DNA of 64,000 bases, taken from positions 124,001-188,000 of the forward strand of contig NZ_JAJNCL010000003.1 in assembly GCF_021025955.1 (NCBI RefSeq), written 5' to 3'. The position numbers and the translations under genes are program-made. Of this stretch, positions 4,214 to 59,356 are shown piece by piece. Under the pieces are notes generated by a model. That model saw only the letters and a program-made list of their open reading frames with translations. It made no database searches and was not told the DNA's origin. This DNA comes from Rhodococcus qingshengii. Lineage in GTDB: Bacteria > Actinomycetota > Actinomycetes > Mycobacteriales > Mycobacteriaceae. Within the stretch, counting starts at the first letter, position 1; every line of letters starts with the position of its first letter.

Positions 4214-4247
4214 AAACGGGCTAATGGTATGTTTACCAGCAACATAC
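4214..4247. promoter_or_regulatory. ARE-like element and overlapping inverted repeat in divergent glycan promoter
   Basis: 4214-4234 reads AAACGGGC-N5-GTATGTTT, the 8-5-8 layout of the sites at 18713, 30284 and 58712. The right half is an exact reverse complement of AAACATAC; the left half matches 5 of 8. An overlapping perfect inverted repeat has arms GTATGTT (4227-4233) and AACATAC (4241-4247) around 7 bases. It lies between two divergent starts (4153 and 4270). Binding by the TetR protein at 30389-31030 is inferred from its family. Confidence 0.5.
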
Positions 4248-15443: not shown

Positions 15444-15490
15444 GTCAGTTACCTCCAGTGTGACAATCGGCTAAAACCTTCAGCGAAAAG

Positions 15491-15537
15491 AAACTGATAG
15501 TTTGCTGAATCCAGTTAAACATACCCGAAGTCGGTCA
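15491..15537. promoter_or_regulatory. Small palindrome and ARE-type half site upstream of the Wzz-like gene
   Basis: Between the Wzz-like start (15443, minus) and the next gene there is a palindrome AAACT-GAT-AGTTT (15491-15503) and, at 15516-15525, TAAACATACC, identical to the complement of the half site at 4226-4235. The partner half in the 8-5-8 frame (GTCGGTCA, 15530-15537) is poor. It may be a one-sided or weak site. Confidence 0.35.
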
Positions 15538-18712: not shown

Positions 18713-18733
18713 AAACATACCTTAGGTTTGTTT
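18713..18733. promoter_or_regulatory. ARE-like 21-bp semi-palindrome
   Basis: AAACATAC (18713-18720), five bases, GTTTGTTT (18726-18733). Both half sites are identical to those of the site at 30284-30304 upstream of the aminoacyl carrier-protein operon. The likeness to butyrolactone-receptor operators is from family knowledge; binding by the TetR at 30389-31030 is inferred. Confidence 0.6.
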
Positions 18734-27277: not shown

Positions 27278-28233
27278 CACATGCCCATTCGTTCACGAAC
27301 GGCAAGGGGCCATGCCGATACATCGAGACCATGAGTTCTCAACAAAGACAATGCAATTCGCTCCATTCCGAAACCGACACATGAGCTGTGTGCCACCTCG
27401 CCCGCCGCCGTCCTGATGTCGAAATTGACACCGAAATGGTCGAGATGATTGTTCGACGACACGATGGCCGTCCCCTCGTCGAGATCCCCGTAGAGCCGAA
27501 CTGTCAGTTCCGTCTTGAGATTCTCTTCGCGTTGATTTGCCGCGAGCATCTTTCCTGCGCGGCCGAAGAACGGATCGTTGGCGATGACCGGAGTGGCGTC
27601 GAGTTCGAGCCGGCCCAGTACCTCGAGTCCCCGCTCGATCCAGTACTCGCGATGTGCTCGCGCCGCTGCGGCGTCGCCGATCGTCACGAACTCGTGCATC
27701 CGAAACGCTTGCATGCGAGCCGGATCGATCGCCGGTTCGTGTCGGAAGCAAAAGCCGTAGATGTCGAGCAGTACCCCACCTTCGGGGAGAACCCCGGTGT
27801 ACTTCGCATATGCCGGATGGCACGCAGCGGACACGAGCATGGTTTCGGTCGGCTCGAGGTGCTGATCCCAGGATTGCCCCTCGGCACGATCTGCAAGCAA
27901 TCGCGCGTGATCGCGGTTGGAGCCGGAAAAGGTGTTGATGGCGCCGGTGAGGTTGGGAAACGACGCGATGTAATCGGTGCGCTCGAAACTGCTGCGCGGG
28001 AACACCGGCGGGAACCGCAGCCGAGTAGCAGCGGCGCCCGGACCCGCTGCCATCACCACTCGGTCGATCCCGTCGACGATGTCCTCGAACACACCGGAAC
28101 GCCCATAGAGTCCCGGTACTTCCGTCTCAACGAGAAGCCCTTCGACAAGCAGTTCGCGCTGAAAAGTGGCCCTTGCCAGATCCAGGTCGGTCTCGCGTGC
28201 CGCGGTCTCTTCTGTCACGATCTCGGTTGTCAT
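27277..28233 (-). CDS. Amino acid:[carrier protein] ligase (atypical seryl-tRNA synthetase homologue)
   Basis: 318 residues, much shorter than a true SerRS because the tRNA-binding arm is missing. Class II catalytic motifs are visible: motif 2 FCFRHEPAID with MQAFRMHEF, and motif 3 CVGFGMERIALSLL. Cys138, Glu181 and Cys285 match the zinc-binding Cys/Glu/Cys set of the characterised Bradyrhizobium enzyme family, which activates glycine or alanine with ATP and loads it on the phosphopantetheine arm of a dedicated carrier protein. The carrier, its phosphopantetheinyl transferase and DUF1839 are all in this operon. The start overlaps the upstream stop as ATGA. The amino acid used cannot be read from the sequence. 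Confidence 0.9.
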   Translation of the reverse strand: MTTEIVTEETAARETDLDLARATFQRELLVEGLLVETEVPGLYGRSGVFEDIVDGIDRVVMAAGPGAAATRLRFPPVFPRSSFERTDYIASFPNLTGAINTFSGSNRDHARLLADRAEGQSWDQHLEPTETMLVSAACHPAYAKYTGVLPEGGVLLDIYGFCFRHEPAIDPARMQAFRMHEFVTIGDAAAARAHREYWIERGLEVLGRLELDATPVIANDPFFGRAGKMLAANQREENLKTELTVRLYGDLDEGTAIVSSNNHLDHFGVNFDIRTAAGEVAHSSCVGFGMERIALSLLRTHGLDVSAWPLAVRERMGM

Positions 28234-29420
28234 ATCGTTCCCCGGTATCCGATAGCCATGTGAGCTGACCCCGCCATGATTCGATCGTTGTTCACCATCA
28301 CTGCTGCGCCGTGCGCGTCACGAAGGTGCCGGCCGAGCGAAAATTCGGTGTCCTCGCGATAGCCGGAGATTCCGCAGATCAACATTGCCTGCCCGACGAT
28401 TTCCACCACCGCGGTGGAGGTAGTGACTTTCAAGTTGTTCATCGCGAGCGAAAAGCCCACAGCGCCGGTCGCCTCGGAATCGGCAGTGCCCACTTCGGCC
28501 TGGACCGCCTGGTCGTAACGTCGTGCCGAAGCGTCGACGAGATCAGCGAATTGTTGCGCAGAGGCTGCAACTTCGGCCAGCCTGAGCGCCCCGGGGGAGG
28601 TTACTCCCGGCTGTTTGCGGGCCGCGGCACGAACGTACTTGCGCGCCTTCTCGACAGCAGCATCCGCGATTCCCAACCACACCGAACTCCAGACGACGTG
28701 CGAGACGGGGAGCATGGTGTGCGTGGAGATCTCGGAATACGAGACGTCGGCAACCATTTCAGGCGTCGAGGTGGCCCGAAGGATGTAGCCGAGGCTGCAG
28801 GTTCCCCTCAGCCCCAGCGTGTTCCAGTCGGTGGTGCGTTCGAGAGTCAGGTCTCCGGTGCGGCACACCACGAGAACCTGATCGTTCGGCTGACTCTCCA
28901 CGGTACGCCTGGCAGTCACGACTATCGCGTCGGAATGCTCACCGTACGAAATTACGGGCGCGTTCTTGATCAGAAGGAGGTGACCGCCCAAATCTTCTAC
29001 GGCGCAGTAACTCCGGCTGACGTCACCACCGATTCCCAACTCGGTTGTCGCCGACGCCAACAGCAATTGCTTGTCGGCAGTTTCCTCGACGAACTCGCGG
29101 AGGGCTTCGGTGTTGCCATGCTTGAACAGCGAGTAGATTTGCGTCTGATGCATGGCGAAAATCATTCCGCTTGCTGCGCAGCGTGTTCCGAGCACTCGAG
29201 CGATCTGCGACACCTCCTGCAGCGAGAGGCCCTCGCCGCCGAGTTCCTTCGGCACGGCTACGGACAACAGTCGTTCACTGCGCATGGCATCGACGGCTTC
29301 GCGCGGAAACCTTGCTTCTACATCAACTTCGTCGGCCCACATCGCTGCAACTTCGTCGGCCACCCGTACAGCGCGCTCGAGAGCAGTCCCGGTCGAGCAC
29401 TGCGATTGCGGAGCGTTCAT
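28230..29420 (-). CDS. Acyl-CoA dehydrogenase-like flavoprotein
   Basis: 396 residues, full length for the family: N-terminal helical domain with PKELGGEGLSL, middle beta domain starting at LLASATTELGIGGDVSRS, and C-terminal helical domain with MNNLKVTTSTAVVEIVGQAMLICG. It should bind FAD. The gene sits between the carrier protein and its loading enzyme with ATGA overlaps on both sides, so the likely substrate is an acyl or aminoacyl group on the carrier protein rather than free CoA esters, comparable to prolyl-carrier-protein dehydrogenases. That substrate assignment is inferred from operon structure. Confidence 0.86.
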   Translation of the reverse strand: MNAPQSQCSTGTALERAVRVADEVAAMWADEVDVEARFPREAVDAMRSERLLSVAVPKELGGEGLSLQEVSQIARVLGTRCAASGMIFAMHQTQIYSLFKHGNTEALREFVEETADKQLLLASATTELGIGGDVSRSYCAVEDLGGHLLLIKNAPVISYGEHSDAIVVTARRTVESQPNDQVLVVCRTGDLTLERTTDWNTLGLRGTCSLGYILRATSTPEMVADVSYSEISTHTMLPVSHVVWSSVWLGIADAAVEKARKYVRAAARKQPGVTSPGALRLAEVAASAQQFADLVDASARRYDQAVQAEVGTADSEATGAVGFSLAMNNLKVTTSTAVVEIVGQAMLICGISGYREDTEFSLGRHLRDAHGAAVMVNNDRIMAGSAHMAIGYRGTI

Positions 29421-29659
29421 GCAGCACCGAGCTCCGTCAGCGCGCCCTCGATCGCGTTCACGCTCGCGAAGGTACTCTTCCGCAACAACTCATCCGGAAA
29501 CTCGATGTCGAACGAATCTTCAAGCGCCAGCATGACATTCACACTTGCGTGCGATGTCAACCCCAACTCGTAGAGATCAGCCTCGCCGTCGATCGTGTTC
29601 ACGTCGACCGCTAGTCGACCGTGCTCGACGAGCACATTCCGAATTGCCTGATCAATCAT
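29417..29659 (-). CDS. Acyl/aminoacyl carrier protein
   Basis: 80 residues, acidic, with the phosphopantetheine attachment site Ser36 in the motif LGLTSH (equivalent to the DSL/TSL motif). Four-helix carrier features follow (LEDSFDIEFPDELL). It overlaps both neighbours: 8 bases with the phosphopantetheinyl transferase upstream and 4 with the dehydrogenase downstream. The Thr-Ser variant and the position next to the ligase fit a dedicated aminoacyl carrier rather than the fatty-acid AcpP. Confidence 0.9.
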   Translation of the reverse strand: MIDQAIRNVLVEHGRLAVDVNTIDGEADLYELGLTSHASVNVMLALEDSFDIEFPDELLRKSTFASVNAIEGALTELGAA

Positions 29660-30098
29660 CAGCGATGTCGTCCTTCTTTTCGATGCGAGCGCCCGAGCGC
29701 GTTGCGATCACCATTGCGATGGCCACGTCCGCCTCGTGCGAGATAGATACTTGAAAGTCGTGTAAATCCTGCACCTGTGCGAGTTCGGCAGCATTACCGG
29801 TCAGAGTGACCCCGCAACCGCCCCACTCGGCTCGGGTGATCTCGATGGAGTTCCACGGCACGGGGACGTCACCAGGCCTGAGCACCTTCACAACAGCCTC
29901 TTTGGCCGCGAAACGTGCAGCCAATCGCTGATCCCGAGCCGGCCCGGCGCACGTCTGCAATTCATGTGGAGTGAAGGTCCGATCCAGGTACCGTCGCCCG
30001 AAAAGATCGATACTGCGGGTGACATCCACGACATTCACGACGTCACAGCCGATCCGCGGCCCGATGTCGAGCATCGGCGCCCGTGCGGTGTCACCCAT
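29652..30098 (-). CDS. AcpS-type 4'-phosphopantetheinyl transferase, first gene of the operon
   Basis: 148 residues from ATG 30098, which has AGGGGGAG 7 bases upstream; a GTG at 30128 lacks this. AcpS signatures are present: IGCDVV with Asp19, ARFAAKEAVVKVL with Glu67 (magnesium and CoA binding) and SISHE near the C-terminus. It should convert the adjacent carrier protein to its holo form. A private PPTase next to its carrier suggests a self-contained pathway. The ARE-like element at 30284-30304 is about 190 bases upstream of this start. Confidence 0.88.
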   Translation of the reverse strand: MGDTARAPMLDIGPRIGCDVVNVVDVTRSIDLFGRRYLDRTFTPHELQTCAGPARDQRLAARFAAKEAVVKVLRPGDVPVPWNSIEITRAEWGGCGVTLTGNAAELAQVQDLHDFQVSISHEADVAIAMVIATRSGARIEKKDDIADD

Positions 30099-30283
30099 CG
30101 CCTGACTCCCCCTTTTTTGGGGCCGCACACGCCGGGCAGCCCCCTATGCTGCCCGGTGCGCCGACGCCGTAATCCTGCCCTGACCAACCCTGCGTACTCA
30201 GCAATTCTTCAGCTACCGGTAGAACATACCGCAATCCGAAGATAGTCCGCAAGATCAGACTCCGAGATTCACATCAACGCCAT

Positions 30284-30320
30284 AAACATACTCCTAGTTT
30301 GTTTTGAATGCAGAACAAAC
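30284..30320. promoter_or_regulatory. ARE-like element fused to a second near-palindrome, operator of the carrier-protein operon
   Basis: 30284-30291 AAACATAC, five bases, 30297-30304 GTTTGTTT. The right half is shared with a second near-palindrome with arms GTTTGTTTTG (30297-30306) and CAGAACAAAC (30311-30320), 9 of 10 positions paired. The region precedes the operon that starts at 30098. Such stacked half sites fit TetR-type repression; the TetR gene ends only 69 bases away. Confidence 0.62.
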
Positions 30321-30388
30321 AGAATATTTTCCCTACCAGGAAATTTGCCACGAACTGAGCAAAAATGGGGTGGTCGAGCGCCGCGATG

Positions 30389-31030
30389 TCAGTGATCGCT
30401 GGCAAGGCGGCGAGCCGCAAATTGCCTGAAGTACTCCACTTTGGATTCCGGGACCACGATCGGAAGTATCAGGTTCCAGGACGCTTTCATGGAGTCCGAA
30501 AGCTCACGCACAGTCCCGGTCGCCGCTGCCATCAGCCGAACTCCGGATGCCACCTCCAACAGGAACCGGGCGATGTCGGCGGAATCCGCGTCCGAACGCA
30601 AATCACCTTCGTCCGCTGCACGACTGGCAAGTTCGCGGTAAATATCGAGCCAGACGTCGAGAGTTGCCGGACCGGAACCTCGATAGTCACCGATCTCCAC
30701 CAACAAACGGAAGGTCGCACGAACCATAGCGTCGTGCGCGCCGATATCCACGATCACGGACGAAATGCCGATCAGCGACTCGAGCGCGGGCGTGCGACGG
30801 TCCAACCAGAGTTCACATTTTGCATCAAAACGTGCCGACCCCTCGTCGATCACTGCCCGAGCGAGTTCTTCCTTGGACCCGAAATGGAAGTACAGGGCGC
30901 CCTTGGTCACCTGGGACTCGGCGATGATCTCGCTCAAGCTGGCGTTGGCATAGCCCAGGCGCAAGAACACCCCCGCTGCTCCGCGCAGCACCGAATCACG
31001 GGTGGCTTCTGCCCGCTCTTGCCTCACCAT
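30389..31030 (-). CDS. TetR-family regulator resembling gamma-butyrolactone receptors (ArpA/ScbR type)
   Basis: 213 residues from ATG 31030, with GGAGG 9 bases upstream. The N-terminal helix-turn-helix (SLSEIIAESQVTKGALYFHFGSKEELA in shape) follows the butyrolactone-receptor pattern, in which VTKGALYFHF is nearly invariant. In the ligand domain, DVWLDIYRELASRAADEGDLR places a Trp at residue 127, where receptors of this family have their ligand-stacking Trp. No butyrolactone synthase (AfsA) is in the window. It is encoded just upstream of the carrier-protein operon on the same strand. It may be a true receptor or a pseudo-receptor binding another ligand. Confidence 0.8.
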   Translation of the reverse strand: MVRQERAEATRDSVLRGAAGVFLRLGYANASLSEIIAESQVTKGALYFHFGSKEELARAVIDEGSARFDAKCELWLDRRTPALESLIGISSVIVDIGAHDAMVRATFRLLVEIGDYRGSGPATLDVWLDIYRELASRAADEGDLRSDADSADIARFLLEVASGVRLMAAATGTVRELSDSMKASWNLILPIVVPESKVEYFRQFAARRLASDH

Positions 31031-31131
31031 CGATCCGGCCTCCAATCACCACACATCGAACGAATCCCTGGTCTTACCCGTTCACAGCGTCAAAATGGAA
31101 GGCTCGGTTTCGGCATTCAACCCACCCTTGC

Positions 31132-31152
31132 AAACAAATAAATCATTTGCCC
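31132..31152. promoter_or_regulatory. Degenerate ARE-like site upstream of the receptor-like TetR gene
   Basis: AAACAAAT (31132-31139), five bases, ATTTGCCC (31145-31152); 6 of 8 and 4 of 8 matches to the AAACATAC/GTTTGTTT halves. The wider stretch is bounded by GCAAA and TTTGC. It lies about 100 bases upstream of the start at 31030, suitable for autoregulation. This is the weakest of the listed sites. Confidence 0.3.
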
Positions 31153-31221: not shown

Positions 31222-31875
31222 TTAACCCTCCAATTGAGGGTCGGCTTCCAGATTCGTCAAGCCATTCCAACACAAATTCACTAGGTGAGCGGCGACAACT
31301 TCCTTGGACGGAGTTCGTTCGTCGAGCCACCAAGTAGCCGTCGTGGACACCATGCCGACAAGCGCCTGGGCGTACATCGTTGCTAGTCCTGGGTCGAAAC
31401 CGCGCCTGGAGAAGTCTCCGGCCAGTAGGTAGCCCACCTGGCTGATCGCGTCATTGAGCAAGCTCGAATACGTCCCACTCGGTGCGACAACCGACGAGTC
31501 ACGCACAAGTATCCGAAATCCGTCCGTGTGCTCCTCCACGTAGGTGAGCAAAGCCAACGCAACCCGCTCCACTCGAACTCTCGAGCGATTCTGGGAGAGG
31601 GAAGACGTGATCATCTCGAGAAGGCGCGACATCTCCCGGTCCACGACGACGGCGTAGAGACCCTCCTTGCCACCGAAGTGCTCGTACACGACCGGCTTGG
31701 ACACGTTCGCTCGCTGCGCGATCTCCTCGATCGAGGTCGCCTCGTATCCGCGCTCCGCGAAGAGTGCCCGCCCGATCTCGATCAGTTGTTGCCGACGTTG
31801 GGTACCGGTCATCCGGATCCGTGCCGCTCGTTCGGGAACTGGATCCCCGCCAACCGAACCGGGCACCGTCGCCAT
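31222..31875 (-). CDS. TetR-family transcriptional regulator (mycobacterial Rv1019-like position)
   Basis: 217 residues; ATG 31875 with AGAGGAAG just upstream. The TetR DNA-binding region is RRQQLIEIGRALFAERGYEATSIEEIAQRANVSKPVVYEHFGGKE in outline, with SKPVVYEHF as the recognition helix. The ligand domain is of the TetR_C type and gives no clue to its effector. In mycobacteria a TetR gene lies between glmU and mfd in this orientation, so this is the core-genome copy and the 7-kb block to its left is the insertion. It probably regulates itself or its neighbours; no clear operator is visible. Confidence 0.88.
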   Translation of the reverse strand: MATVPGSVGGDPVPERAARIRMTGTQRRQQLIEIGRALFAERGYEATSIEEIAQRANVSKPVVYEHFGGKEGLYAVVVDREMSRLLEMITSSLSQNRSRVRVERVALALLTYVEEHTDGFRILVRDSSVVAPSGTYSSLLNDAISQVGYLLAGDFSRRGFDPGLATMYAQALVGMVSTTATWWLDERTPSKEVVAAHLVNLCWNGLTNLEADPQLEG

Positions 31876-38047: not shown

Positions 38048-39082
38048 CTAGAGATCGAGGACGATTCGGCTACCCTCGGCCGCGCGCCCTGTACAGGTAA
38101 GCATACGGTCGACGTTGTGGTCCTTCCCCTCAGCAGATCGAGGAGGCGTAGCGCTGAGAACCTGAGTGACACAGGTGCCACAGAAACCTTGTCGGCACGA
38201 GTACTGTATCTCCGGTCGCCGCTCGAGCAACACGTCGAGCACTGAACGGTCAGCCGGCACCTGCAACACCTCACCAGTCTGCCCAAGGACTACCTCAAAG
38301 GCCTCTCCGTCAGTGATGGGCGCCATACCGAATCTCTCGACCCGGAGTGCGCGCGCACTGGTCGCACCGAAATTCTTCTGCACAGCTTCCAGCATCGATT
38401 CCGGGCCGCAGCAATACACCGCGCCTCCGATGGGAGCGCGGCGCAGCAGTTCAGGGGGAGTCGGCGGTCCGTTGCCGTCATCTACCAAGACGGCCACTCG
38501 GGTGCAGTCCCAGGATTCTATTTCGTCGAGGAAGGGCATCGAAGCCCGCGAACGGCCCGAATACACCAATTGCCAATCCATTCCGAGTTCACGTGCGCGC
38601 CGAACCATAGCGACGATCGGAGTGATCCCGATACCGCCGGCAACGAACAGCACTGGCCCGTCCTCGACGAACATGAAGCCGTTCCGGGGATCACGAACAC
38701 GCACACTCTCCCCGACGCCTAGCGCGTACATCTCCCGCGATCCGATTCCATCCGCGACGCGTCGGATACAAATGCGATAGCAGGTCCGGTCGCCAGGATC
38801 ACCACACAGCGAATAGTGACGCCTTCTCCCCGAAGACAATTGGACCGCGATGTGTGATCCAGGGTCCCACGGAGGCAGGAGTTCGCCTGTGGGCGAAGAC
38901 AGTTCCAGTGAAATCACATCGCCGTCAGGAACTATGACGGATCGGACTGTCACCACCAACATTTGCCCGTCCGGCGAGTCGGAGGCCCGCCACGATTGCG
39001 CGAATCGCTGTCGCGAAACGATCGACATGTAGAGGTCTGTGATCGTCCCAACCCAATCGATCATGGCGTCGCGGCCGACCAT
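38048..39082 (-). CDS. Phthalate-dioxygenase-reductase-like FMN/[2Fe-2S] oxidoreductase
   Basis: 344 residues from ATG 39082; a GTG at 39091 overlapping the upstream stop is an alternative. Flavin domain motif HYSLCGDP, NAD-binding GGIGITPIVAMVRRA, YCCGPESML, and a C-terminal plant-type ferredoxin with CRQGFCGTCVTQVL plus a distal Cys (LTCTG). This order (flavin, NAD, ferredoxin) is that of phthalate dioxygenase reductases. It should pass electrons from NAD(P)H to an oxygenase. Overlap with the PF10118 gene suggests that diiron-like protein or the desaturase as partner. Confidence 0.88.
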   Translation of the reverse strand: MVGRDAMIDWVGTITDLYMSIVSRQRFAQSWRASDSPDGQMLVVTVRSVIVPDGDVISLELSSPTGELLPPWDPGSHIAVQLSSGRRRHYSLCGDPGDRTCYRICIRRVADGIGSREMYALGVGESVRVRDPRNGFMFVEDGPVLFVAGGIGITPIVAMVRRARELGMDWQLVYSGRSRASMPFLDEIESWDCTRVAVLVDDGNGPPTPPELLRRAPIGGAVYCCGPESMLEAVQKNFGATSARALRVERFGMAPITDGEAFEVVLGQTGEVLQVPADRSVLDVLLERRPEIQYSCRQGFCGTCVTQVLSATPPRSAEGKDHNVDRMLTCTGRAAEGSRIVLDL

Positions 39083-39087
39083 ACTCT

Positions 39088-39993
39088 TCACTTCTGCATG
39101 GCCCGCACGGCAGGCGACGTTGCAAGATAGGTGACTGCTTGCTCCGTAGAACCGTGGTTCGTGGGGTGATAGCCCGGATCGAGGTAGGCCGCCACCCGGG
39201 TGAGAAGCGAGATCGGCGAAGGTAGGGTTCCACGCCTGACGGCTGTTGTGAATCCAGACCACAGCGCTGAGGACAGGCTTACGGTTCCCTTCTTCAACGT
39301 GGGATCGGACTTGAGCAGAAAGATGGTCCCCTGCGCAAAGACAAACAGGGTCACCGGCCCCATGTACAACAGTGCCCGGATTCGACGGGAATACCGGCGG
39401 TCGAAGTAGCACAGAACGTCGTAAGCGACGGCACGGTGCTCAACCTCTTCGGCGCCGTGCCATCGCAACAGGTCGAGCATTCTCGGGTCAGCGCCCGCCG
39501 CATCAAGTCCAGATGCGTTCAGTACCCACTCACCCATAAATGCGGTGATGTGTTCGAATGCGGCGATCAGCGCAAGCCGTTCCACCAACTGATTGATGTT
39601 GGTTGCGCCGTCATCTCGGTAGGGTCCGAGTATCTTCGAGAAAATCCAATCCATCTGCGACACAAAGGCGGTGGGATCAATACCGTTGGCCGTGAGATTC
39701 TCGAGCACTCCTGAGTGCGCATCTGCGTGGACTGACTCCTGCCCGATGAATCCGATCACGTCGGCGCGCAAGTTCTCGTCGGTGATCAGCGGATACGTTT
39801 CCTTGTACGTCTCGACGAACCAGTACTCGACAGCCGGCAGGAATAGGTGCAGCACGTTGAGGACGTGCGTGGTCACTGGATCACCCGGAACCCAGTGCAC
39901 CGGAAGCGTCGACCAGTCAAAGCCGACGTTGCGCGGGGCGAGCAGCGCCTTTGCCCGTCCCAGTTCGGCGGGTGTTTGCTCGACAGGCTTCAT
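39088..39993 (-). CDS. PF10118 predicted metal-dependent hydrolase (ferritin-like)
   Basis: 301 residues, mostly helical. Possible metal ligands follow a ferritin-like pattern: EYWFVETY, GQESVHADAH, AAFEHITAF and GAEEVEHRAVAYD. The family (PF10118) is annotated as metal-dependent hydrolase without firm biochemistry; the E...ExxH pattern would also suit a diiron oxygenase, which would explain the two redox partners beside it. The ATG overlaps the desaturase stop as ATGA, so it is part of the desaturase operon. Confidence 0.8.
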   Translation of the reverse strand: MKPVEQTPAELGRAKALLAPRNVGFDWSTLPVHWVPGDPVTTHVLNVLHLFLPAVEYWFVETYKETYPLITDENLRADVIGFIGQESVHADAHSGVLENLTANGIDPTAFVSQMDWIFSKILGPYRDDGATNINQLVERLALIAAFEHITAFMGEWVLNASGLDAAGADPRMLDLLRWHGAEEVEHRAVAYDVLCYFDRRYSRRIRALLYMGPVTLFVFAQGTIFLLKSDPTLKKGTVSLSSALWSGFTTAVRRGTLPSPISLLTRVAAYLDPGYHPTNHGSTEQAVTYLATSPAVRAMQK

Positions 39994-41162
39994 GATGCGC
40001 CACTTTCATCTGGTCGTTTCGGTGCCGCTTGCGTCGTCGAACCGGTCAGAAAAGGCGGCAGGCTCAGTGAGAAGATTTTTCCCCACACGGAGCTGACCTG
40101 CTTGACAAGTCCACCTGTGTTGTACGGCAGGCCATGTTTTTCGCACAGCGCCTTCACTTGCGGCGCCATCTCGGGATACCGGTGCGCAGGCAGGTCGGGA
40201 AACAGGTGATGCTCGATTTGATGTGAAAGATTGCCGGACATGATGTGCATCAGTTGTCGACCCTCGATGTTGGCGCTGCCCAGCATCTGTCGCACGTACC
40301 AGTGTCCGCGGGTTTCAGCGGTGGTTTCTTCCTCGGTGAAAACCTGGACACCGGTGGGGAAATGCCCGCAGAAGATGACGGTGTGCATCCAGACGTTGTG
40401 AATCACCTTCGAACTCGCATTGCCCAGCAGAGTGGAAGCGAACAACGGCCCTGTCAGCGCAGGAAAGAGCACGTAATCCTTGACGACCTGCTGGCTCGCC
40501 TTGCTCAACATTCCTTCCAGAAGCGGCTTTACATCGACCCATTTCCGGTTGCCCTTGACGATGTTGTCGATCTCGAGATCGTGGAGCATCACGCCCCACT
40601 CGAAAAACAGCATCAGGACCAGCGAATAGAGGGGGTTGCCCAGATAATACGGATGCCACTTCTGCGACTCGTCGATTCGTATGATGCCGTATCCGATGTC
40701 TCGGTCACGTCCAGCGATGTTGGTGTAGGTGTGGTGGAGGAAATTGTGCGAATGCTTCCACTGATCCGCCGGGCAGACGGTGTCCCACTCGAACACCTGA
40801 GAACTCAAGCCGGGTTCACGCATCCAGTCGTACTGGCCGTGCATGACATTGTGGCCGATTTCCCAGTTGTCGAGGATCTTGGAAATGCTCAACGCGCCCA
40901 CGCCCGCCAACCAGAACGGGGGCAGGAATCCGAGATACATCAGGCCGCGGCCGGCAACCTCGAATCCGCGCTGCACCTTGATGAGCCGATAGATGTATTC
41001 TCGATCGACATCGCCGAGATCGGCAACGATCCGGGCGCGCAATTGGTCGAGTTCGACACCAATTTCCTCGATCTGTTCGGGAGAAAGCCGGACCCGTTCC
41101 TCGGGTTCGTCGCCTCGAGCCGCTCCCAGCGAGGTCAGCGCTGAAGTCAAGAAACTCATCAT
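39990..41162 (-). CDS. DesA3-like membrane acyl desaturase
   Basis: 390 residues from ATG 41162, chosen because AAGGGTGA precedes it; an ATG at 41192 would add 10 residues. The three histidine boxes of membrane diiron desaturases are clear: GHNVMH, HNFLHH (in WKHSHNFLHHTYTN) and HQIEHHLFPD, with membrane segments between them. The closest well-known type is mycobacterial DesA3, the stearoyl-CoA delta-9 desaturase, which works with a dedicated reductase. That reductase is encoded directly upstream (41199-42293). Confidence 0.92.
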   Translation of the reverse strand: MMSFLTSALTSLGAARGDEPEERVRLSPEQIEEIGVELDQLRARIVADLGDVDREYIYRLIKVQRGFEVAGRGLMYLGFLPPFWLAGVGALSISKILDNWEIGHNVMHGQYDWMREPGLSSQVFEWDTVCPADQWKHSHNFLHHTYTNIAGRDRDIGYGIIRIDESQKWHPYYLGNPLYSLVLMLFFEWGVMLHDLEIDNIVKGNRKWVDVKPLLEGMLSKASQQVVKDYVLFPALTGPLFASTLLGNASSKVIHNVWMHTVIFCGHFPTGVQVFTEEETTAETRGHWYVRQMLGSANIEGRQLMHIMSGNLSHQIEHHLFPDLPAHRYPEMAPQVKALCEKHGLPYNTGGLVKQVSSVWGKIFSLSLPPFLTGSTTQAAPKRPDESGAS

Positions 41163-41198
41163 CCGTAGTTCACCCTTCTCGACGGTGAGCATCAGTTG

Positions 41199-42293
41199 TC
41201 AAAGGTTGATCGTGACATCGCCGACGGCAGCGGAAACACACAGCTGGATCGGTTGGTCCGCTCGGGTATCCACATCGCCCGTACGAAGGTTCCGCGTACT
41301 ACCGGTAGCTTTCATCGCAGTACAGGAAAAACAGATCCCCATCCGGCATCCGAATTCGGGTTTGAGCCCGGCCATTTCTGCTTGTTCGAGAAGGCTCACG
41401 CTCGAGTTGGGTACCGATATCCCAGCGAGAACGAAGGACGTATTGCCCTCAGTGCCCCCGGGAACAAACATCGGTGCGGCGGTGAACGCCTCCGTCCGCA
41501 ACTGGGCACCAAGCCCACGCGCCTGATAGAGATCTCGAACCGAGTCCATCAACCCCTGCGGGCCACACAAATATGTCAACGCCGGTGCATCCCCCGACGT
41601 CATGGTGTCGAGATGATCGGGCACAAAATTCCCGTACAGCTCGGCGACACCAGTCTGATCGGTGTACACAATCCGCACCGTTACGTTCTCCAACTCCCCC
41701 ACCCACGCCAATTCATCGCGGTACACCGCATCAGCGGAGGTCCGCGCGTAGTGTAGAAATACGATATCGCCGGGGTAGTTCTCGTCGATCAGTGTCCGCA
41801 GCATCGACATGACGGGCGTCACGCCGCTGCCACCACTGATGAAGACGATGCGTTGTGGTCGCTGATCCGGCAGCCGAAACTCACCCGCAGCTGCAGCCAG
41901 ACTGAAGACCATCCCGGCACAGGCATTCTTCACGAGAAAATTGGAAACGGCGCCGCGCGCGTGAACCGTCAGTTCGATCTGTCCGTCGGCCCGGTGCTGA
42001 GAGTTGACAGGTGAGTAGCAGCGCGTTTCGCGGATTCCTCTGATCACCACGCCGATCCGAACGAACTGGCCAGCTTCGAAACCCGCCCATTGACTGGTCG
42101 GGCGCACGGTGAGCGTCACCGCATCTGAAGTGGCACGGTGAACCGCTGTCACCACGCCCCGCAAATCTCGCACCGTTAACAGCGGGTCAATCAGCTCCAA
42201 ATAGCGATCGATGGGATGGGGTGCAACCAACTTCTCGAACAACGCCACAAGGGGTAGGCGAAACTTGGTCGCAACTTCGGCCATCAACGTCAC
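41199..42293 (-). CDS. Ferredoxin-NAD(P) reductase partner of the desaturase (Rv3230c-like)
   Basis: 364 residues. GTG 42293 is favoured by AGAGGGAAG 10 bases upstream; ATG 42284 and GTG 42302 are alternatives. FAD site RCYSPVNS, NAD site FISGGSGVTPVMSMLRTL, YLCGPQGLM, and a C-terminal [2Fe-2S] domain with CRMGICFSCTAMK and a distal Cys (IQLCVS). It feeds electrons from NADPH to the diiron desaturase. First gene of the four-gene minus-strand operon (reductase, desaturase, PF10118 protein, second reductase). Confidence 0.9.
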   Translation of the reverse strand: MTLMAEVATKFRLPLVALFEKLVAPHPIDRYLELIDPLLTVRDLRGVVTAVHRATSDAVTLTVRPTSQWAGFEAGQFVRIGVVIRGIRETRCYSPVNSQHRADGQIELTVHARGAVSNFLVKNACAGMVFSLAAAAGEFRLPDQRPQRIVFISGGSGVTPVMSMLRTLIDENYPGDIVFLHYARTSADAVYRDELAWVGELENVTVRIVYTDQTGVAELYGNFVPDHLDTMTSGDAPALTYLCGPQGLMDSVRDLYQARGLGAQLRTEAFTAAPMFVPGGTEGNTSFVLAGISVPNSSVSLLEQAEMAGLKPEFGCRMGICFSCTAMKATGSTRNLRTGDVDTRADQPIQLCVSAAVGDVTINL

Positions 42294-42471
42294 TGCGACC
42301 ACACTTCCCTCTTGCGTTACCTCGGTACAGCACCAAGGTCCCCGAAGCAGTCACAGTCTTACACAAATCGGGCAAATTCGGACCAAAGTCAAGGATACGG
42401 TAGGTATGGCGTACGCGGCCCGCCGATGTACGCGATTGGAATCAATACACCCTTCGGGGCAAACCGCTGTC

Positions 42472-42477
42472 TACGAT
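42472..42477 (+). promoter_or_regulatory. -10 element of a probable leaderless promoter
   Basis: TACGAT lies exactly six bases before the GTG at 42484, so transcription would start at the G of the start codon. Leaderless messages are common in actinobacteria. No convincing -35 element is seen. Confidence 0.45.
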
Positions 42478-42483
42478 CATGGA

Positions 42484-43335
42484 GTGACACCCCAGCCGAG
42501 GACATACTCCGTAAACGAATTCGAGTTCGAGACTCTGGTCGACGGCCCCCAAAGCGGGCCCCCCATCATCCTCTTGCACGGGTTCCCTGAAACACACAAT
42601 TCCTGGACAGCGGTATCCAAGCTACTTACAAGCAAAGGAATGCGTTCGATCGCGCCGAACCAACGCGGATACTCAGCCGGCGCCCGACCTCCCCACATCG
42701 CGGACTACCGCCTCGATCGACTCGTCGCCGATGTCATCGGGCTGCTCGATGCGCTGGAATTGAACAGCGCCCACCTGGTCGGCCATGATTGGGGCTCTGC
42801 CGTTGCCTGGGCGGTCGCCGCGCGCCATCCAGACCGGATTCGCACGCTGACCTGTGCGTCAATTCCGCACACGAGCGCCTTCAGTTGGGCTTTGGCGAAC
42901 GATCTCGACCAGCAAACCCGATCAGGCTACATTCGGCGGTTCTGGCAGCAGGGCAAGGCAGAGGAAGAACTGCTGGCCGACAATTCGCGCGGTCTACGCG
43001 GGCTCTTCGGCGGACATCCCGATACAGCCGTCGCCGATCACAATATCGGCCACCTGAGCGAACGAGAAACGCTCACCGCAGCACTGAACTGGTATCGCGC
43101 TATGTCGCCGGACGACTCGGCTCTCCCACCCGTTCGGGTGCCGACCACCTATCTCTGGGGAACGCAGGACGCCGCAATGGGCAGAGTAGGCGCAGAGTTA
43201 TGCCAAGAATTTGTGACCGGCCCATACACGTTTATCGAACTCGAAGGCGTTGGGCATTGGGTGCCCGCCCAGGCAACAGAGGCACTGGCCACGGCGGTCA
43301 TCGACAGAGTCCAGGCATCGCCCGATCACCTGTAG
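42484..43335 (+). CDS. Epoxide-hydrolase-like alpha/beta hydrolase
   Basis: 283 residues from GTG 42484 (leaderless model). ATG 42406 with AAGGA upstream would add 26 residues that look unconserved. Motifs: oxyanion HGFPETHNSW, NQRGYSAGARP, and the nucleophile elbow VGHDWGSAVAW with Asp in the nucleophile place, as in epoxide hydrolases and dehalogenases; the general base His is in GVGHWVPAQ. It is cytosolic. Transcribed divergently from the desaturase operon, so a role in detoxifying fatty-acid epoxides is conceivable but not shown. Confidence 0.85.
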   Translation: MTPQPRTYSVNEFEFETLVDGPQSGPPIILLHGFPETHNSWTAVSKLLTSKGMRSIAPNQRGYSAGARPPHIADYRLDRLVADVIGLLDALELNSAHLVGHDWGSAVAWAVAARHPDRIRTLTCASIPHTSAFSWALANDLDQQTRSGYIRRFWQQGKAEEELLADNSRGLRGLFGGHPDTAVADHNIGHLSERETLTAALNWYRAMSPDDSALPPVRVPTTYLWGTQDAAMGRVGAELCQEFVTGPYTFIELEGVGHWVPAQATEALATAVIDRVQASPDHL

Positions 43336-43344
43336 GCCGATTCG

Positions 43345-44316
43345 CTAGGCACGTTCTGCGGCAATCAAAGCAAAACGCCGGTCAGGATCGGTCCAAAGCT
43401 TGCGCACCCCGAAACCCGCCGACGCGAGCTCCGCGGCAATCCCTCCCTCGGTGAACTTCGCCGAGATCTCGGTGCGCAGCTGCTCGCCCGCTGCGAAGGT
43501 GATCTCCAGATCCAGCTCGTCGATCCGGACCGAGAGTTCACGAAGCGCTTCCAGCCGCATCTCGATCCACTGGTTCTCGACGTCCCAGAGCGCGACGTGA
43601 CGGAAGTCATCCAAGGGAAAGTTCGCTCCCAGTTGCTTGTTCAGGACCGCGAGAACATTGAGGTTGAACTGTGCCGTCACGCCGGCAGCGTCGTCGTACG
43701 CGGGCACGAGAACAGCCGGATCGATCACCAATCCGACGCCCAGGATCAGGTTCTCCCCCGGATCCAGCACCGCTGCAATGCCCGAGAGGAACTCGGCGCG
43801 TTCTGCCGGAACGAGATTGCCGAGAGTTCCACCGAGAAACGCGACCGCCCGCCGTCCACCACCGGGCAGATGATGCAGCGAGCCTGTGAAGTCACTGACC
43901 ACCCCGACCACATCGATGCCGGGGAACTCGGCACCGACCTGCCGCGCCGCGCCTTCCAGTGCCGTCACCGAAACATCCTGCGGTACATACGTTCGCAGAG
44001 TTCCGCGCGCGGTCATTGCATCGAGTAACAACCGCGTCTTCTCCGAGGAACCGGAACCCAGTTCGATCAGGATCTCAGGTTCGGTCAACGCAGCGATCTC
44101 GTCGGCGTACTGCGCGAGCAGGCCGCGCTCGGTACGGGTGGGGTAGTACTCGGGTAAGGCCGTGATCTCCTCGAACAATTCACTTCCACACGCGTCGTAA
44201 AACCATTTGGGCGAGAGCCACTTCGGCGTAGCGGTCAGACCCTCCCTGGCCTCGGCTCGCAGTGCGTCGACCGATTCGGCCGGTGTCAGATAAACCTCGA
44301 GCGTAGGGGTTTTCAT
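43345..44316 (-). CDS. egtD: L-histidine N-alpha-methyltransferase EgtD
   Basis: 323 residues from ATG 44316, overlapping the egtC stop. Family features: N-terminal LSPKWFYDACGSELFEEITALPEYYPTRTE, SAM-binding IELGSGSSEKTRLLLDA, FLGGTLGNL, and a C-terminal DFRHVALWDVENQWIEMRL. The enzyme trimethylates histidine to hercynine, the first step of ergothioneine synthesis, in the cytosol. Last gene of the egtABCD operon. It ends 9 bases from the convergent epoxide-hydrolase-like gene. Confidence 0.96.
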   Translation of the reverse strand: MKTPTLEVYLTPAESVDALRAEAREGLTATPKWLSPKWFYDACGSELFEEITALPEYYPTRTERGLLAQYADEIAALTEPEILIELGSGSSEKTRLLLDAMTARGTLRTYVPQDVSVTALEGAARQVGAEFPGIDVVGVVSDFTGSLHHLPGGGRRAVAFLGGTLGNLVPAERAEFLSGIAAVLDPGENLILGVGLVIDPAVLVPAYDDAAGVTAQFNLNVLAVLNKQLGANFPLDDFRHVALWDVENQWIEMRLEALRELSVRIDELDLEITFAAGEQLRTEISAKFTEGGIAAELASAGFGVRKLWTDPDRRFALIAAERA

Positions 44317-45059
44317 TGTTCTCCCATCGGTATCGGGGTGATGATCAAATGGCCAGGACGCGCGCAGACGATGTGCCGGTCCGGCACCTGCTCCCAGTCC
44401 GGCGATCGATCGAACGGTTCGGAAACGATCAGGGCCCGCGACTCGTCGACCCGCGTGTACAACGTGTGGCCCCAGGCCGTGGCCCATAGTTCCTGTCCGT
44501 CGCCGAACAGGAGGTTCAGTCGTGAATCCGGTGCCGCCGCAGCCACATCGTGAACGAGGCTCGTCACGGCGGCTTCCACGGGCTTCGACTTCAACCGATG
44601 CCGAAGCACTGTCCACAACAAGGCGGCATCCGTCGGGGCGGGCATCTTCAGCAGTTCGACGGCCGGAACTTCTGCCGCCAAGTCGGCAAGTGAACCAGGC
44701 CAACCGGATACCGCTCCGTTATGGCTGAAAGCGTAGGTTCCGTCGACAAACGGTGCGCAGGCACCGATCTCGACGGCCATCCCCTCCGTCGCGGAACGTA
44801 CGGCGGCGAGAACGGATCCGGAAACGATGTGGGACAACGTCTCGTCGACGGTCGGGTCCGACCAGATCGGCGAAATGCTGCGATACCGCCCCTGTCTTCC
44901 GTCGTTCCACCACACCGCGCCGAATCCGTCGGCATTGATGGTCCCGCCTCCACGCATCTCACGTGGTGCCCACGACTGTCGCATCAGTGAGTTCTCGCCG
45001 TCGTGGAGGAGCTCACGAACCGAACGTGGCGGCCCGAGATACCCGAGGTGCCGACACAT
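44313..45059 (-). CDS. egtC: Ergothioneine gamma-glutamyl amidohydrolase EgtC
   Basis: 248 residues from ATG 45059, giving MCRHLGYLG with the catalytic Cys2 of class II glutamine-amidotransferase (Ntn) enzymes; the ATG is 1 base past the egtB stop. Other Ntn features are NADGFGAVWW and FSHNGAVSGWPG. It removes the glutamyl group from gamma-glutamyl-hercynylcysteine sulfoxide. Operon position between egtB and egtD agrees. Confidence 0.94.
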   Translation of the reverse strand: MCRHLGYLGPPRSVRELLHDGENSLMRQSWAPREMRGGGTINADGFGAVWWNDGRQGRYRSISPIWSDPTVDETLSHIVSGSVLAAVRSATEGMAVEIGACAPFVDGTYAFSHNGAVSGWPGSLADLAAEVPAVELLKMPAPTDAALLWTVLRHRLKSKPVEAAVTSLVHDVAAAAPDSRLNLLFGDGQELWATAWGHTLYTRVDESRALIVSEPFDRSPDWEQVPDRHIVCARPGHLIITPIPMGEQ

Positions 45060-45060
45060 G

Positions 45061-46368
45061 TCAGGATCTACCCGAAATCGTTCTGGCGCAGCGAAAACCC
45101 GAGAAGATCTGGCGTCTGATCGGATGGTCCCAGTTGCGGAACGTCCCCCGGCAGGCAACGCTGTCGGTCCCGAACGATCCCCCGCGCAACACTTTGTAGT
45201 CGCCGCCGAAGAACACCTCCGAATACTCCCGATACGGGAAGGCCCGGAAGCCGGGATACGGATGGAATCCCGAAGACGTCCACTCCCACACGTCGCCGAT
45301 CAACTGCTCGACACCCGCTGCCGACGCCCCCGCCGGGTACGAGCCGACGCTGGCTGGACCGAGGTGGCGTTGACCGAGATTGGCAAGATTCTCGTCTGCG
45401 GACACGTCCCCCCACGGGAACCGTCGTGATCTTCCGGATTCCGGATCCCACCGTGCGGCCTTTTCCCACTCCGCCTCGGTGGGAAGCCTTTTACCCGCCC
45501 AATTCGCGTAGGCTTCGGCTTCGTAGAAGCTCACATGCACGACCGGCTTGTCCGGTGGGACCGGCGCCTCGACGCCGAAAGTCTCGTGCCACCAACCCGA
45601 ACTGTCATGTTCCCAGAACAGAGGCGCTCGAAGCTTCGCGTCGACGCGATGCCGCCAACCGTCTCGAGACCACAGTTCCGGTCGGGAATAGCCGCCGTCC
45701 TCGATGAATTCGATGAACTGCCCGTTGGTGACCGGGAATCTGTCGATTGCGAAATCAGTGAGATAGACCTGATGTGCAGTGCGCTCGTTGTCGAGTGCCC
45801 ACGGCTCGTCGTCGGTCCCCATGACGAAGGAACCGGCTGCGATGGTGACCTCGTCGAGTTCCGGCGTGCGGCCCGCTTGCGGAGCGGGTGTCGCAACGAG
45901 TGCCGTCGGCCCCGAACGTAATTGGTGTGTCGCGAGCATGGTCTCGGCGTGTTGCTGTTCGTGCTGGGCGATCATCCCGAAGGCAAACCCGTCCACGTCG
46001 AGTTCTGTGCGCCCGAACGTGCTGGCTTCGAGCACATCCCACACCTTCCCACGAACCGTACGTACGTATTCGCGCGCCTCGGCCGGGTTGAGCAGGGGAA
46101 GTGTGGGTCTCGACGACCTCGAATGCTTGAAAGCGTCGTACAGTTCGTCTATGTCGCTACGCACCGGATCGCGACCACCGACATCGCGCACCAGCCAGAG
46201 TTCCTCTTGATTGCCGATGTGCGCCAGATCCCACACGAGCGGACTCATCAACGGGGAATGCTGAGCGATCAATTCGGTATCGTCGACGCAGTCGGTGAGC
46301 AGCGTCGACCGCTCACGCGCTCGCAGAAGTACGGCCTCGACCGCTTCTTTGGTGATCTCCCCCGTCAT
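45061..46368 (-). CDS. egtB: Hercynine oxygenase EgtB
   Basis: 435 residues. An N-terminal DinB-like domain with the iron ligand candidates His50 (DLAHIGNQEE) and His136/His140 (QHEQQH), followed by an FGE-sulfatase-type domain (KRLPTEAEWEKAARWDP, GDVWEWTSSGFHPYPGF, VLRGGSF). This is the non-haem iron sulfoxide synthase that joins gamma-glutamylcysteine to hercynine. Overlaps the egtA stop by 4 bases. Confidence 0.96.
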   Translation of the reverse strand: MTGEITKEAVEAVLLRARERSTLLTDCVDDTELIAQHSPLMSPLVWDLAHIGNQEELWLVRDVGGRDPVRSDIDELYDAFKHSRSSRPTLPLLNPAEAREYVRTVRGKVWDVLEASTFGRTELDVDGFAFGMIAQHEQQHAETMLATHQLRSGPTALVATPAPQAGRTPELDEVTIAAGSFVMGTDDEPWALDNERTAHQVYLTDFAIDRFPVTNGQFIEFIEDGGYSRPELWSRDGWRHRVDAKLRAPLFWEHDSSGWWHETFGVEAPVPPDKPVVHVSFYEAEAYANWAGKRLPTEAEWEKAARWDPESGRSRRFPWGDVSADENLANLGQRHLGPASVGSYPAGASAAGVEQLIGDVWEWTSSGFHPYPGFRAFPYREYSEVFFGGDYKVLRGGSFGTDSVACRGTFRNWDHPIRRQIFSGFRCARTISGRS

Positions 46369-47588
46369 GTGTCGCTCTCACCGGGCACGATTGCGCGACA
46401 GCACCGTTCGGCTGCGGCATCGAGAAGGCGAACAAACTGTGGCTCCGGCGCGTACGACGCGGCAAGCGACATCAGAGATGTTGCCGCCGAACGCAGTTCG
46501 ACGTCGTCCAAACCGTACTCTGCCGCATCCCGCCACCTCCCGGCCGTCGACGCTGCAGCATCACTCGCCTCGCGCATCACGGCTGGCCCGGACAGCAACG
46601 CGTCGACCGCTGCTATCGGCACTCGCCACAAATCTCCCGGTTGTGCGTCGATGTAGCGAACCTCCAGATGGCCGACAGCGCGAACCGGCGGGAACAGCGT
46701 CGACAGGTGATAGTCCAAGTCCGCCCAGACGGGGCGACGTCCGATCTCGGCATCCAAGGCGCCGTCGATCCAGTCCGCGAAAGTCGCGCCCCGCGGAGCC
46801 GTCCAATCATCGCCTTCGTTTCGCACACACATGAGCGGAACGTCGAGCGCCCAGGCGGCGTAGTCCTGCGCTTCCGGGATGGCGGCTGTGCGCCAGGAAT
46901 CGAGCTCGAGCCACGTCCGCATGCGTTGGGAAGCCCAATCCCCCCTCGGAACCCCTTGCAAGCGTGGAGAACACGCAAATGCTGCGATGAGAGCCGGACC
47001 CATGTCCCCGAGGAGCCGCCAACGCTGGGCGATGGACTCCGGACTCCCGCCGGCATCGACACTGACCTGCACTGCTGCGGTATTGCACATCATCAAGGTG
47101 CCGTAAGGGCCTATCCCGGCAAAGCGGGATTCCATTGCGCAGTAACGCGGCAACCGGAGAATGCGAGAAGGGGGGCGGGCGACGTCGGCCGCGGCAGAAC
47201 TGATTTCGATGGAGTGCGACGCGAGGAGAGATTCGAGAGTCCGACGGTCTTCGTCGAGACAGTCACACAGTTCGCGGGCGGACGTGCGCGGAGCGGACGA
47301 GAGTTCGATCTGTCCGCCGGGTTCTACGGTGACCAGGCTGCCACGAGGGAGCGGAACCGCCGGTGAATCCGGGTCGATGCTGGTGGGTGCGTGTCGCCCG
47401 AGTGCTCTTGCCAGCGTCGCGGCGGATGGCCTCTCCCCACCGGGATCTTGCCTGGTCAGCCACTCGACCTCGGCTCCGACCAAGCGGGGTGGCCCCTGCT
47501 TGAAGCACACACCACCGACGTAGGCCTCGGCCGCAGGACGCGAATCCACCTGCGTGGTCTGTGCTGCTGTCAACGCTGCTGTCACCAT
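46365..47588 (-). CDS. egtA: Glutamate-cysteine ligase EgtA
   Basis: 407 residues. GCS2-like features: VGAEVEWL, a substrate loop TVEPGGQIELSSAP, RYCAMESRFAGIGPYGTLMMCNTAAVQVSVD and VGHLEVRYIDAQPGD. It makes gamma-glutamylcysteine for EgtB. First gene of the operon; the 78 bases before it (to 47667) carry the promoter. Proteins of this type can also be called GshA, but the egtBCD neighbours decide the name. Confidence 0.94.
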   Translation of the reverse strand: MVTAALTAAQTTQVDSRPAAEAYVGGVCFKQGPPRLVGAEVEWLTRQDPGGERPSAATLARALGRHAPTSIDPDSPAVPLPRGSLVTVEPGGQIELSSAPRTSARELCDCLDEDRRTLESLLASHSIEISSAAADVARPPSRILRLPRYCAMESRFAGIGPYGTLMMCNTAAVQVSVDAGGSPESIAQRWRLLGDMGPALIAAFACSPRLQGVPRGDWASQRMRTWLELDSWRTAAIPEAQDYAAWALDVPLMCVRNEGDDWTAPRGATFADWIDGALDAEIGRRPVWADLDYHLSTLFPPVRAVGHLEVRYIDAQPGDLWRVPIAAVDALLSGPAVMREASDAAASTAGRWRDAAEYGLDDVELRSAATSLMSLAASYAPEPQFVRLLDAAAERCCRAIVPGESDT

Positions 47589-58711: not shown

Positions 58712-58732
58712 AAACCAACTCCTGGTATGTTT
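58712..58732. promoter_or_regulatory. ARE-like site 1 upstream of the gene at 58784
   Basis: AAACCAAC (58712-58719), five bases, GTATGTTT (58725-58732). The halves match AAACATAC at 6 of 8 and its exact complement. It lies 5 bases after the pnuC stop. Confidence 0.55.
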
Positions 58733-58741
58733 ACGTCCATT

Positions 58742-58762
58742 AAGCACACCTACGGTCTGTTT
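58742..58762. promoter_or_regulatory. ARE-like site 2, exactly 30 bp from site 1
   Basis: AAGCACAC (58742-58749), five bases, GTCTGTTT (58755-58762); 6 of 8 and 7 of 8 matches. The 30-bp phase puts both sites on the same DNA face, about three turns apart, which favours cooperative binding. It ends 21 bases before the start codon, overlapping the expected promoter and ribosome-site region. Confidence 0.55.
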
Positions 58763-58783
58763 ACGGGCATCAGGAGCGAAACA

Positions 58784-59356
58784 ATGGAAGACAAAAACTC
58801 TCACGGAACATCGGCCTCCAGCGGTTCCGGCAACGGATCGAGAGCCAGCAGTTCAGCGAGTAATAATTCCGCGAGCAACGGTGCGGCGAGCAACGGTGCG
58901 GCGAGCAACGGTTCGGCGAGCAACGGTTCCGGCAGCGCCACCGCCACAGCAGATTTTCTGTCGACCGCACCCAAGCAATCGGATGCCTTCACGTTTCCGC
59001 TTCCCACCCGAACCACGGCCGCACACAGCAGCGGAGAGGACCTTTCAGTGCCAGCTTCAACACGCGAATCATCGAGGACACTTGAGACTCGGAGTCGCAC
59101 CGTCGTACGGCGCGACGCGATGGGCGTAGCTGCCGTTCGAGTGGCCGGGCGTCTCACCCACACCGAACTCATCGCGAATCAGGCCTCACCCTCGAGCACG
59201 CATTCCTCCGATCCCATGATGGACCTGGACGAGTTGCTCACGATGCTCGGCAGCTACCTGTTGTCCTCGGGGTTCGAACATCCCGAAATCCACGCCAAAC
59301 TCGGCGGACAGTCGATCGTCGTCAACCTCGTGTCGCCGGAGATCAGCGCCAGCTGA
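58784..59356 (+). CDS. Low-complexity Ser/Asn/Gly/Ala-rich protein of unknown function
   Basis: 190 residues; ATG 58784 has AGGAG 7 bases upstream. Residues about 10-55 are Ser/Asn/Gly/Ala repeats (ASNGA units) and probably disordered. A Thr/Ser/Arg-rich middle follows, and the only region with folded character is the last 50 residues (DLDELLTMLGSYLLSSGFEHPEIHAKL and SIVVNLVSP). I do not recognise the family. There is no signal peptide. It has its own short upstream region with two ARE-like sites, so it is likely under tight, signal-dependent control, which makes it more interesting than its sequence alone suggests. Confidence 0.72.
   Translation: MEDKNSHGTSASSGSGNGSRASSSASNNSASNGAASNGAASNGSASNGSGSATATADFLSTAPKQSDAFTFPLPTRTTAAHSSGEDLSVPASTRESSRTLETRSRTVVRRDAMGVAAVRVAGRLTHTELIANQASPSSTHSSDPMMDLDELLTMLGSYLLSSGFEHPEIHAKLGGQSIVVNLVSPEISAS
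58871..58930 (+). repeat. Four tandem 15-bp units in the low-complexity gene
   Basis: Units at 58871-58885, 58886-58900, 58901-58915 and 58916-58930 read GCGAGCAACGGTGCG with small changes and encode ASNGA or ASNGS. The unit length is a multiple of 3, so copy-number change would keep the frame. Confidence 0.85.

Follow-up and report, generated by a model that had tools for sequence, protein, structure and literature searches.

A gene for a 190-residue protein, starting at 58784 in the window (the whole 64-kb stretch of Rhodococcus qingshengii DNA analysed here), is preceded by two ARE-like operators, which are probably read by a ScbR/ArpA-family TetR regulator encoded at 30389-31030. The operators are a later addition to an old gene, confined to the R. 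erythropolis group, and the gene product appears to be an antitoxin-type regulator minus its DNA-reading helix and with a disordered tail in addition. An earlier note on this DNA, which had described a disordered protein under the control of a distant TetR, is partly supported in its overall interpretation.

Two ARE-like operators at the 58784 promoter

The promoter and its gene have the following elements.

58712-58732 (+), ARE-like operator 1, AAACCAACTCCTGGTATGTTT, a 21-bp imperfect palindrome whose right half overlaps the extended -10 element; matrix score 27.1
58723-58731 (+), extended -10 element TGGTATGTT (TGNTANNNT), kept also where the operators are absent
58742-58762 (+), ARE-like operator 2, AAGCACACCTACGGTCTGTTT, a 21-bp imperfect palindrome in the predicted 5' leader; matrix score 21.8
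58772-58776 (+), Shine-Dalgarno sequence AGGAG, read from the sequence and kept in the alignment
58784-59356 (+), the 190-aa gene from its ATG, 76 bp past the pnuC stop

The earlier note was right that the two sites, starting at 58712 and 58742, are exactly 30 bp apart and that they end just before the ribosome site, operator 2 stopping 9 nt short of AGGAG. Its description of them as ARE-like was also borne out, since the scores given above come from a symmetric 21-bp matrix trained on 17 sites of other promoters, mostly from exopolysaccharide regions, and on none from the 58784 promoter. When the 64-kb window was scanned with this matrix only seven positions scored above 6, and all are promoter sites of the same regulon; besides operators 1 and 2 these are:

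30284-30304 (-), ARE before a carrier-protein operon; score 32.6
18713-18733 (-), ARE before the gene for an initiating sugar transferase (PF02397; 16976-18484, minus strand); score 32.2
4214-4234 (+), ARE before exopolysaccharide genes that run from 4270; score 19.8
15487-15537 (-), a second ARE pair, also with 30-bp spacing, before the gene for a 652-aa membrane protein (13485-15443, minus strand); scores 14.4 (at 15487) and 17.2 (at 15517)

When sequences of 64 kb were simulated 20 times with a first-order Markov model, no score of at least 14 arose. A degenerate pattern, derived in part from operators 1 and 2 themselves, occurs with no or one mismatch at five places in the 6.48-Mb genome, every one of them within the window, and gave nine rows in the window against 0.02 expected from window shuffles; with two mismatches allowed, the whole genome holds no excess of the pattern over a reversed-pattern control (19+25 vs 23+18). 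That operators 1 and 2 are genuine beyond chance is thus confirmed.

The proposal that both sites face the same side of the DNA holds approximately. At 10.5 bp per turn 30 bp make 2.86 turns, which puts the operators about 50 degrees out of phase and so on roughly the same face only. Arguments from DNA face carry little weight in any case because CprB, the relative studied in most depth, places, according to a passage of PMC4150764, two dimers on opposite sides of a single site.

An old gene and its HigA-type product

The 58784 gene is judged to be old. Its nearest named relatives are in Rhodococcus sp. IEGM 1409, R. erythropolis NBRC 15567 and Rhodococcus sp. P-2, and orthologues are present in 24 of 28 genomes of the genus. 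Its neighbours are prfC, pnuC, and genes for a PNPOx-type flavoprotein and a SnoaL protein; at the loci examined in two further genera prfC lies upstream, with or without pnuC, and the PNPOx gene is often downstream. The encoded protein has these features.

58871-58927 (+), 15-bp tandem repeat with SNGAA/SNGSA units, in the disordered tail; its length varies by strain
58988-59005 (+), motif FTFPLP, in the disordered tail
59102-59338 (+), HigA-type antitoxin-like domain, the C-terminal ~80 residues, from profile and alignment evidence
59177-59224 (+), Ser/Asp/Pro linker replacing the DNA-recognition helix, from alignment A5

The protein had been described as a low-complexity, disordered one of 190 residues. 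The length is correct, and the low complexity is limited to the N-terminal ~105 residues, the first ~100 being 71% Ser, Thr, Gly, Asn or Ala. An F-x-F-x-L-P motif is found in all 24 Rhodococcus proteins, with a TFVYPLP-type counterpart in 12/12 parsed proteins of a second genus, and no motif of this type is present in the five proteins of a third (counts outside Rhodococcus cover 17 of 19 proteins, L125 and L135 being left out).

The claim that the protein is of no known family did not survive. Pfam gave no family for the C-terminal ~80 residues and, for the whole protein, a single sub-threshold match to DUF5879 (0.049) that we disregarded. The profile search of the C-terminal part that the earlier note had suggested was run with the last 88 residues; it matched proteins in 47 of 201 family genomes, in nine of 31 genera, and led to HigA-type relatives. 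The weakest true matches of this profile (A3; E 4e-9 to 3.5e-5) are complete helix-turn-helix proteins from five other genera, all five with HTH_3 above cut-off, and one of them run against the PDB (L157) matches Mycobacterium tuberculosis HigA3 at 4.6e-7 and also HigA2. Profile-profile comparison gave an E value of 3.4e-10 (probability 96.7), a direct pairwise alignment between the 58784 protein and one helix-turn-helix relative scored 101 against a maximum of 44 in 300 shuffles, and the 20 pairs aligned all gave z values between 6.9 and 16.4. In the reverse search with a helix-turn-helix profile the 58784 gene was the top match in its own genome (2.1e-6). A HigA origin of the C-terminal domain is on these grounds very probable. 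Two weak matches of the family search (E 2e-4), one in G103 and the other in G152, were put down to chance; that in G103 looks by eye like an oxidoreductase.

Alignment with the HigA-type proteins shows helix alpha1 (AMGVAAVRVAGRLT), helix alpha4 (DELLTMLGSYLLSSGF) and the strand pair (PEIHAKLGGQSIVVNLV) to be kept; the V-S-x-x-E signature of the recognition helix is missing in 24/24 Rhodococcus proteins and in 17/17 parsed proteins of other genera. At the sequence level, then, the domain and its dimerisation elements are found and the recognition helix is not. In HigA3, as a passage of PMC7340258 has it, alpha2 and alpha3 form the helix-turn-helix and the dimer is made through alpha1, alpha4 and the beta-lid, so that the part kept here would be the dimerisation part. 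Two AlphaFold2 predictions, made from only seven near-identical sequences, reached pLDDT values of 43 and 71; they show strands in place of alpha1, at odds with the homology, the five models differ widely from one another, and a Foldseek search returned no match better than E 0.3; we consider them too poor to support a HigA-type fold and gave them no weight.

Could the protein still function as an antitoxin, or as a regulator that binds DNA, with its partner encoded elsewhere? Its homology to HigA-type proteins is one reason to think so. Another is selection: in the C-terminal part Ks is 0.54-0.58 against a Ka of 0.03-0.05 in comparison with three relatives, and 0.19 against 0.015 with a close one (all uncorrected proportions), which puts the domain under strong purifying selection. 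Nevertheless we think this improbable, given that the recognition-helix signature is gone from every protein parsed and that no toxin gene is seen among the neighbours, prfC, pnuC and the flavoprotein gene included. The 58784 protein is joined to M. tuberculosis HigA3 and HigA2 by the intermediate relative L157 and can be aligned with them over alpha1, alpha4 and the C-terminal strand pair; it differs from them in having no recognition helix, no adjoining toxin seen, a long FxFPLP tail, and prfC beside its gene.

The probable regulator, its possible signal and other predicted targets

The earlier note placed the regulator, a TetR, some 28 kb from the 58784 gene, and a TetR gene of the receptor type, belonging to the ScbR family, does exist there. 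It and the operon beside it are as follows.

30389-31030 (-), ScbR/ArpA-family TetR regulator, an NCBIfam NF041196 equivalog scoring 155.8 bits (cut-off 150); the longest ORF extends to 31045
26291-30128 (-), operon encoding a phosphopantetheinyl transferase, a carrier protein (29417-29659), an acyl-CoA-dehydrogenase-like protein, an amino acid:[carrier protein] ligase and a DUF1839 protein

The best solved relatives of the regulator are CprB and AvaR1. Orthologues at 88-100% identity are present in all ten erythropolis-group genomes, and many other genomes have a relative of about 50% identity, likewise next to the FasR-like gene. We take the regulator to be the likely reader of the AREs, and its control of the 58784 gene to be probable from the family assignment and the sites. 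Two other reading frames at this locus were set aside: the TetR at 31222-31875 (-) resembles FasR, although its 109 bits fall far short of the model cut-off of 330, and occurs in 27 of 28 genomes, several of them without sites, and the ORF at 30365-31141 (+) is spurious, lying antisense to the real regulator gene.

The other predicted targets lie in a block of exopolysaccharide and ligase genes. The exopolysaccharide genes from 4270 encode an alpha/beta-hydrolase, a Wzy-type protein, a glycosyltransferase and a flippase. The 58784 gene had been called the only target far from the other loci; the site at 4214, on the opposite side of the regulator, is itself some 26 kb distant from it, and what stands is that the 58784 gene is the sole target outside the block. 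In the window the exopolysaccharide/ligase/mfd block is beside the regulator, and in G003 it is more than 110 kb from both the regulator and the 58784 orthologue; the distance between regulator and 58784 gene stays at about 21-28 kb (G000 contig C33, G003 contig C3). The second ARE doublet, with its 30-bp spacing, is also found in G003 (L142, 16438/16468). Elsewhere in the window, the region 38048-47588 (-) contains, judged by Pfam matches only, a fatty acid desaturase/oxidoreductase pair (39990-42302) and putative ergothioneine-type genes with EgtA/B/D-like matches (43345-47588).

The ligase (27277-28233) is above the NF005479 cut-off and has a carrier protein and a transferase as partners. 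It occurs in 19 of 28 genomes of the genus, among them every one of the ten erythropolis-group genomes, and in G003 and G009 the gene order of the operon and its upstream ARE are kept. In its partners it is like other NF005479 amino acid:[carrier protein] ligases; it is unlike them in that its operon is headed by an ARE and adjoins a ScbR-type receptor, a link of which we found no instance in the open-licence literature. The operon may be considered a candidate source of the ligand.

Classic GBL signalling is doubtful here, for two reasons. In the textbook autoregulators the receptor's promoter carries its own ARE; no position between 30305 and 31993 scores even 4 or more, so the regulator's own promoter is without one. 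Second, AfsA, found in 20 of 28 genomes of the genus, is present in six of the ten genomes with the doublet and absent from four (G003, G021, G022 and G023) whose completeness is 99-100%. The plain GBL reading, with AfsA, was rejected on the latter count.

A variant of that reading has the sites recognized by another ScbR-like paralogue, for instance the GblR beside AfsA on contig C9, which would make this ordinary gamma-butyrolactone control. The genome does carry AfsA on C9, and it encodes four ScbR-like proteins besides the window regulator. Against this, ARE-type sites and the doublet are both retained in the four genomes without AfsA, it is around the 30389-31030 regulator that the strongest sites are grouped, and C9 has no site with zero or one mismatch; the paralogue is therefore an unlikely reader. 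The AfsA-type gene of G000 (C9:42108-43654) has an adjoining ScbR-like gene whose product is 34% identical to the 30389-31030 regulator. The aligned frame of this ScbR-like gene contains a TAG in five genomes, which may be a natural stop.

An older promoter with added operators

Upstream DNA could be read for 23 of the 24 Rhodococcus orthologues of the 58784 gene, the remaining one (in G019) ending at a contig edge. The element TGNTANNNT is at the corresponding place in all 23 promoters, and a similar CTGGTA(G/A)TTTGC precedes a related gene of a different genus. The ARE doublet is more restricted. The earlier note had staked its reading on the sites being present in orthologous promoters, and this came out half true: both sites are in 10/10 erythropolis-group orthologues (site 1 scoring 26.4-27.9 and site 2 14.7-25.1) and neither is in any of the 13 other readable Rhodococcus orthologues, in which the best score is 10.7. 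Because the -10 element is kept throughout and the doublet is confined to one group, the operators were added to an older promoter, and control by the regulator would be a clade-specific addition to an older gene. Orthologues of the ScbR-like regulator at ~50% identity, along with sites at the exopolysaccharide locus, occur in genomes that have no doublet at a 58784-type promoter, which argues that the 58784 gene is not a constant target. In the orthologue of G017 (L022) a degenerate GGTCTGTTTACGGGC stretch of about four copies lies between operator 2 and the start codon.

These promoter data bear on a more sceptical reading, that operator 1 is merely a conserved promoter (-10 TATGTT) seen as half of a palindrome and that its resemblance to the regulon motif is due to chance. 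The right half, GGTATGTTT, indeed coincides with the extended -10, whose conservation extends to promoters that have no ARE. Operator 2 as a whole and the left halves, however, score as sites only in the group that has a close regulator orthologue, and a second promoter bears the same 30-bp doublet, so that we give this reading little credence.

Proposed working

The sites, their spacing and clade distribution, the regulator's family, the domain homology and the helix loss are all read from sequence; DNA binding by the TetR, repression, ligand release, dimerisation and the adaptor role are steps that we infer. In the explanation we prefer, the 30389-31030 repressor would sit on both operators of the 58784 promoter. 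Its occupancy of operator 1 would cover the extended -10, and at operator 2, in the 5' leader, it would either block elongation or cooperatively aid binding at operator 1. A diffusible ligand would free the repressor and so switch on the 58784 gene along with the exopolysaccharide cluster and the ligase operon. The old prfC-linked gene would thus have kept its core promoter and been recruited to the regulon in the R. erythropolis group only. Some ScbR-family members are reported as activators, but activation through the two sites is very improbable here because operator 1 over the -10 and operator 2 past the predicted start are in positions typical of repression.

Under the preferred explanation the product would be cytosolic, with a long disordered Ser/Asn/Gly tail bearing F-x-F-P-L-P on a HigA-type domain, and would form a dimer with two disordered arms. 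Such a dimer might work as an adaptor or decoy for protein partners that does not bind DNA, a tentative idea to which we attach less than even confidence. The explanation as a whole, from TetR repression at two operators through ligand release to a dimeric adaptor or decoy lacking the helix-turn-helix, we hold to be somewhat favoured. A bolder scheme, which we offer as speculation and regard as unlikely, is an AfsA-independent Rhodococcus signalling circuit: the signal would be made by an operon under ARE control, through the loading of an amino acid on a carrier protein, the neighbouring ScbR-type receptor would sense it, and release would turn on exopolysaccharide genes and an antitoxin relative without a DNA-reading helix, which would act as a dimeric adaptor or dominant-negative partner.

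Known systems and significance

The system resembles the Streptomyces ScbR/ArpA/CprB receptors and their AREs in having a receptor above the family cut-off and inverted-repeat operators that overlap promoters, with the TTTG-type inverted core that a passage of PMC4595836 gives for ScbR sites. It is unlike them in that no ARE precedes the receptor gene, no AfsA lies beside the receptor, and the predicted targets consist of the exopolysaccharide genes together with the operon of the amino acid:[carrier protein] ligase. With Rhodococcus jostii GblA/GblR it shares the receptor superfamily and the genus; the window regulator is nevertheless a separate protein, the homologue on the AfsA side being only ~34% identical. 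Work on GblR may, as a passage of PMC5735094 suggests, help to find regulated genes. Each part of the present system is of a known kind; a receptor that is not autoregulated, no dependence on AfsA, a ligase operon, and an antitoxin relative without helix-turn-helix as clade-specific target were not found together in the open-licence literature searched.

Little is known of which genes butyrolactone-type receptors control in Rhodococcus, and the sequence of this window outlines a compact regulon that consists of exopolysaccharide genes, one gene unlinked to them, and an operon that might make a signal or a decoration. The unlinked gene is an apparent case of an antitoxin-type regulator from which the DNA-reading helix has gone, to which a disordered tail has been added, and which purifying selection has kept next to prfC.
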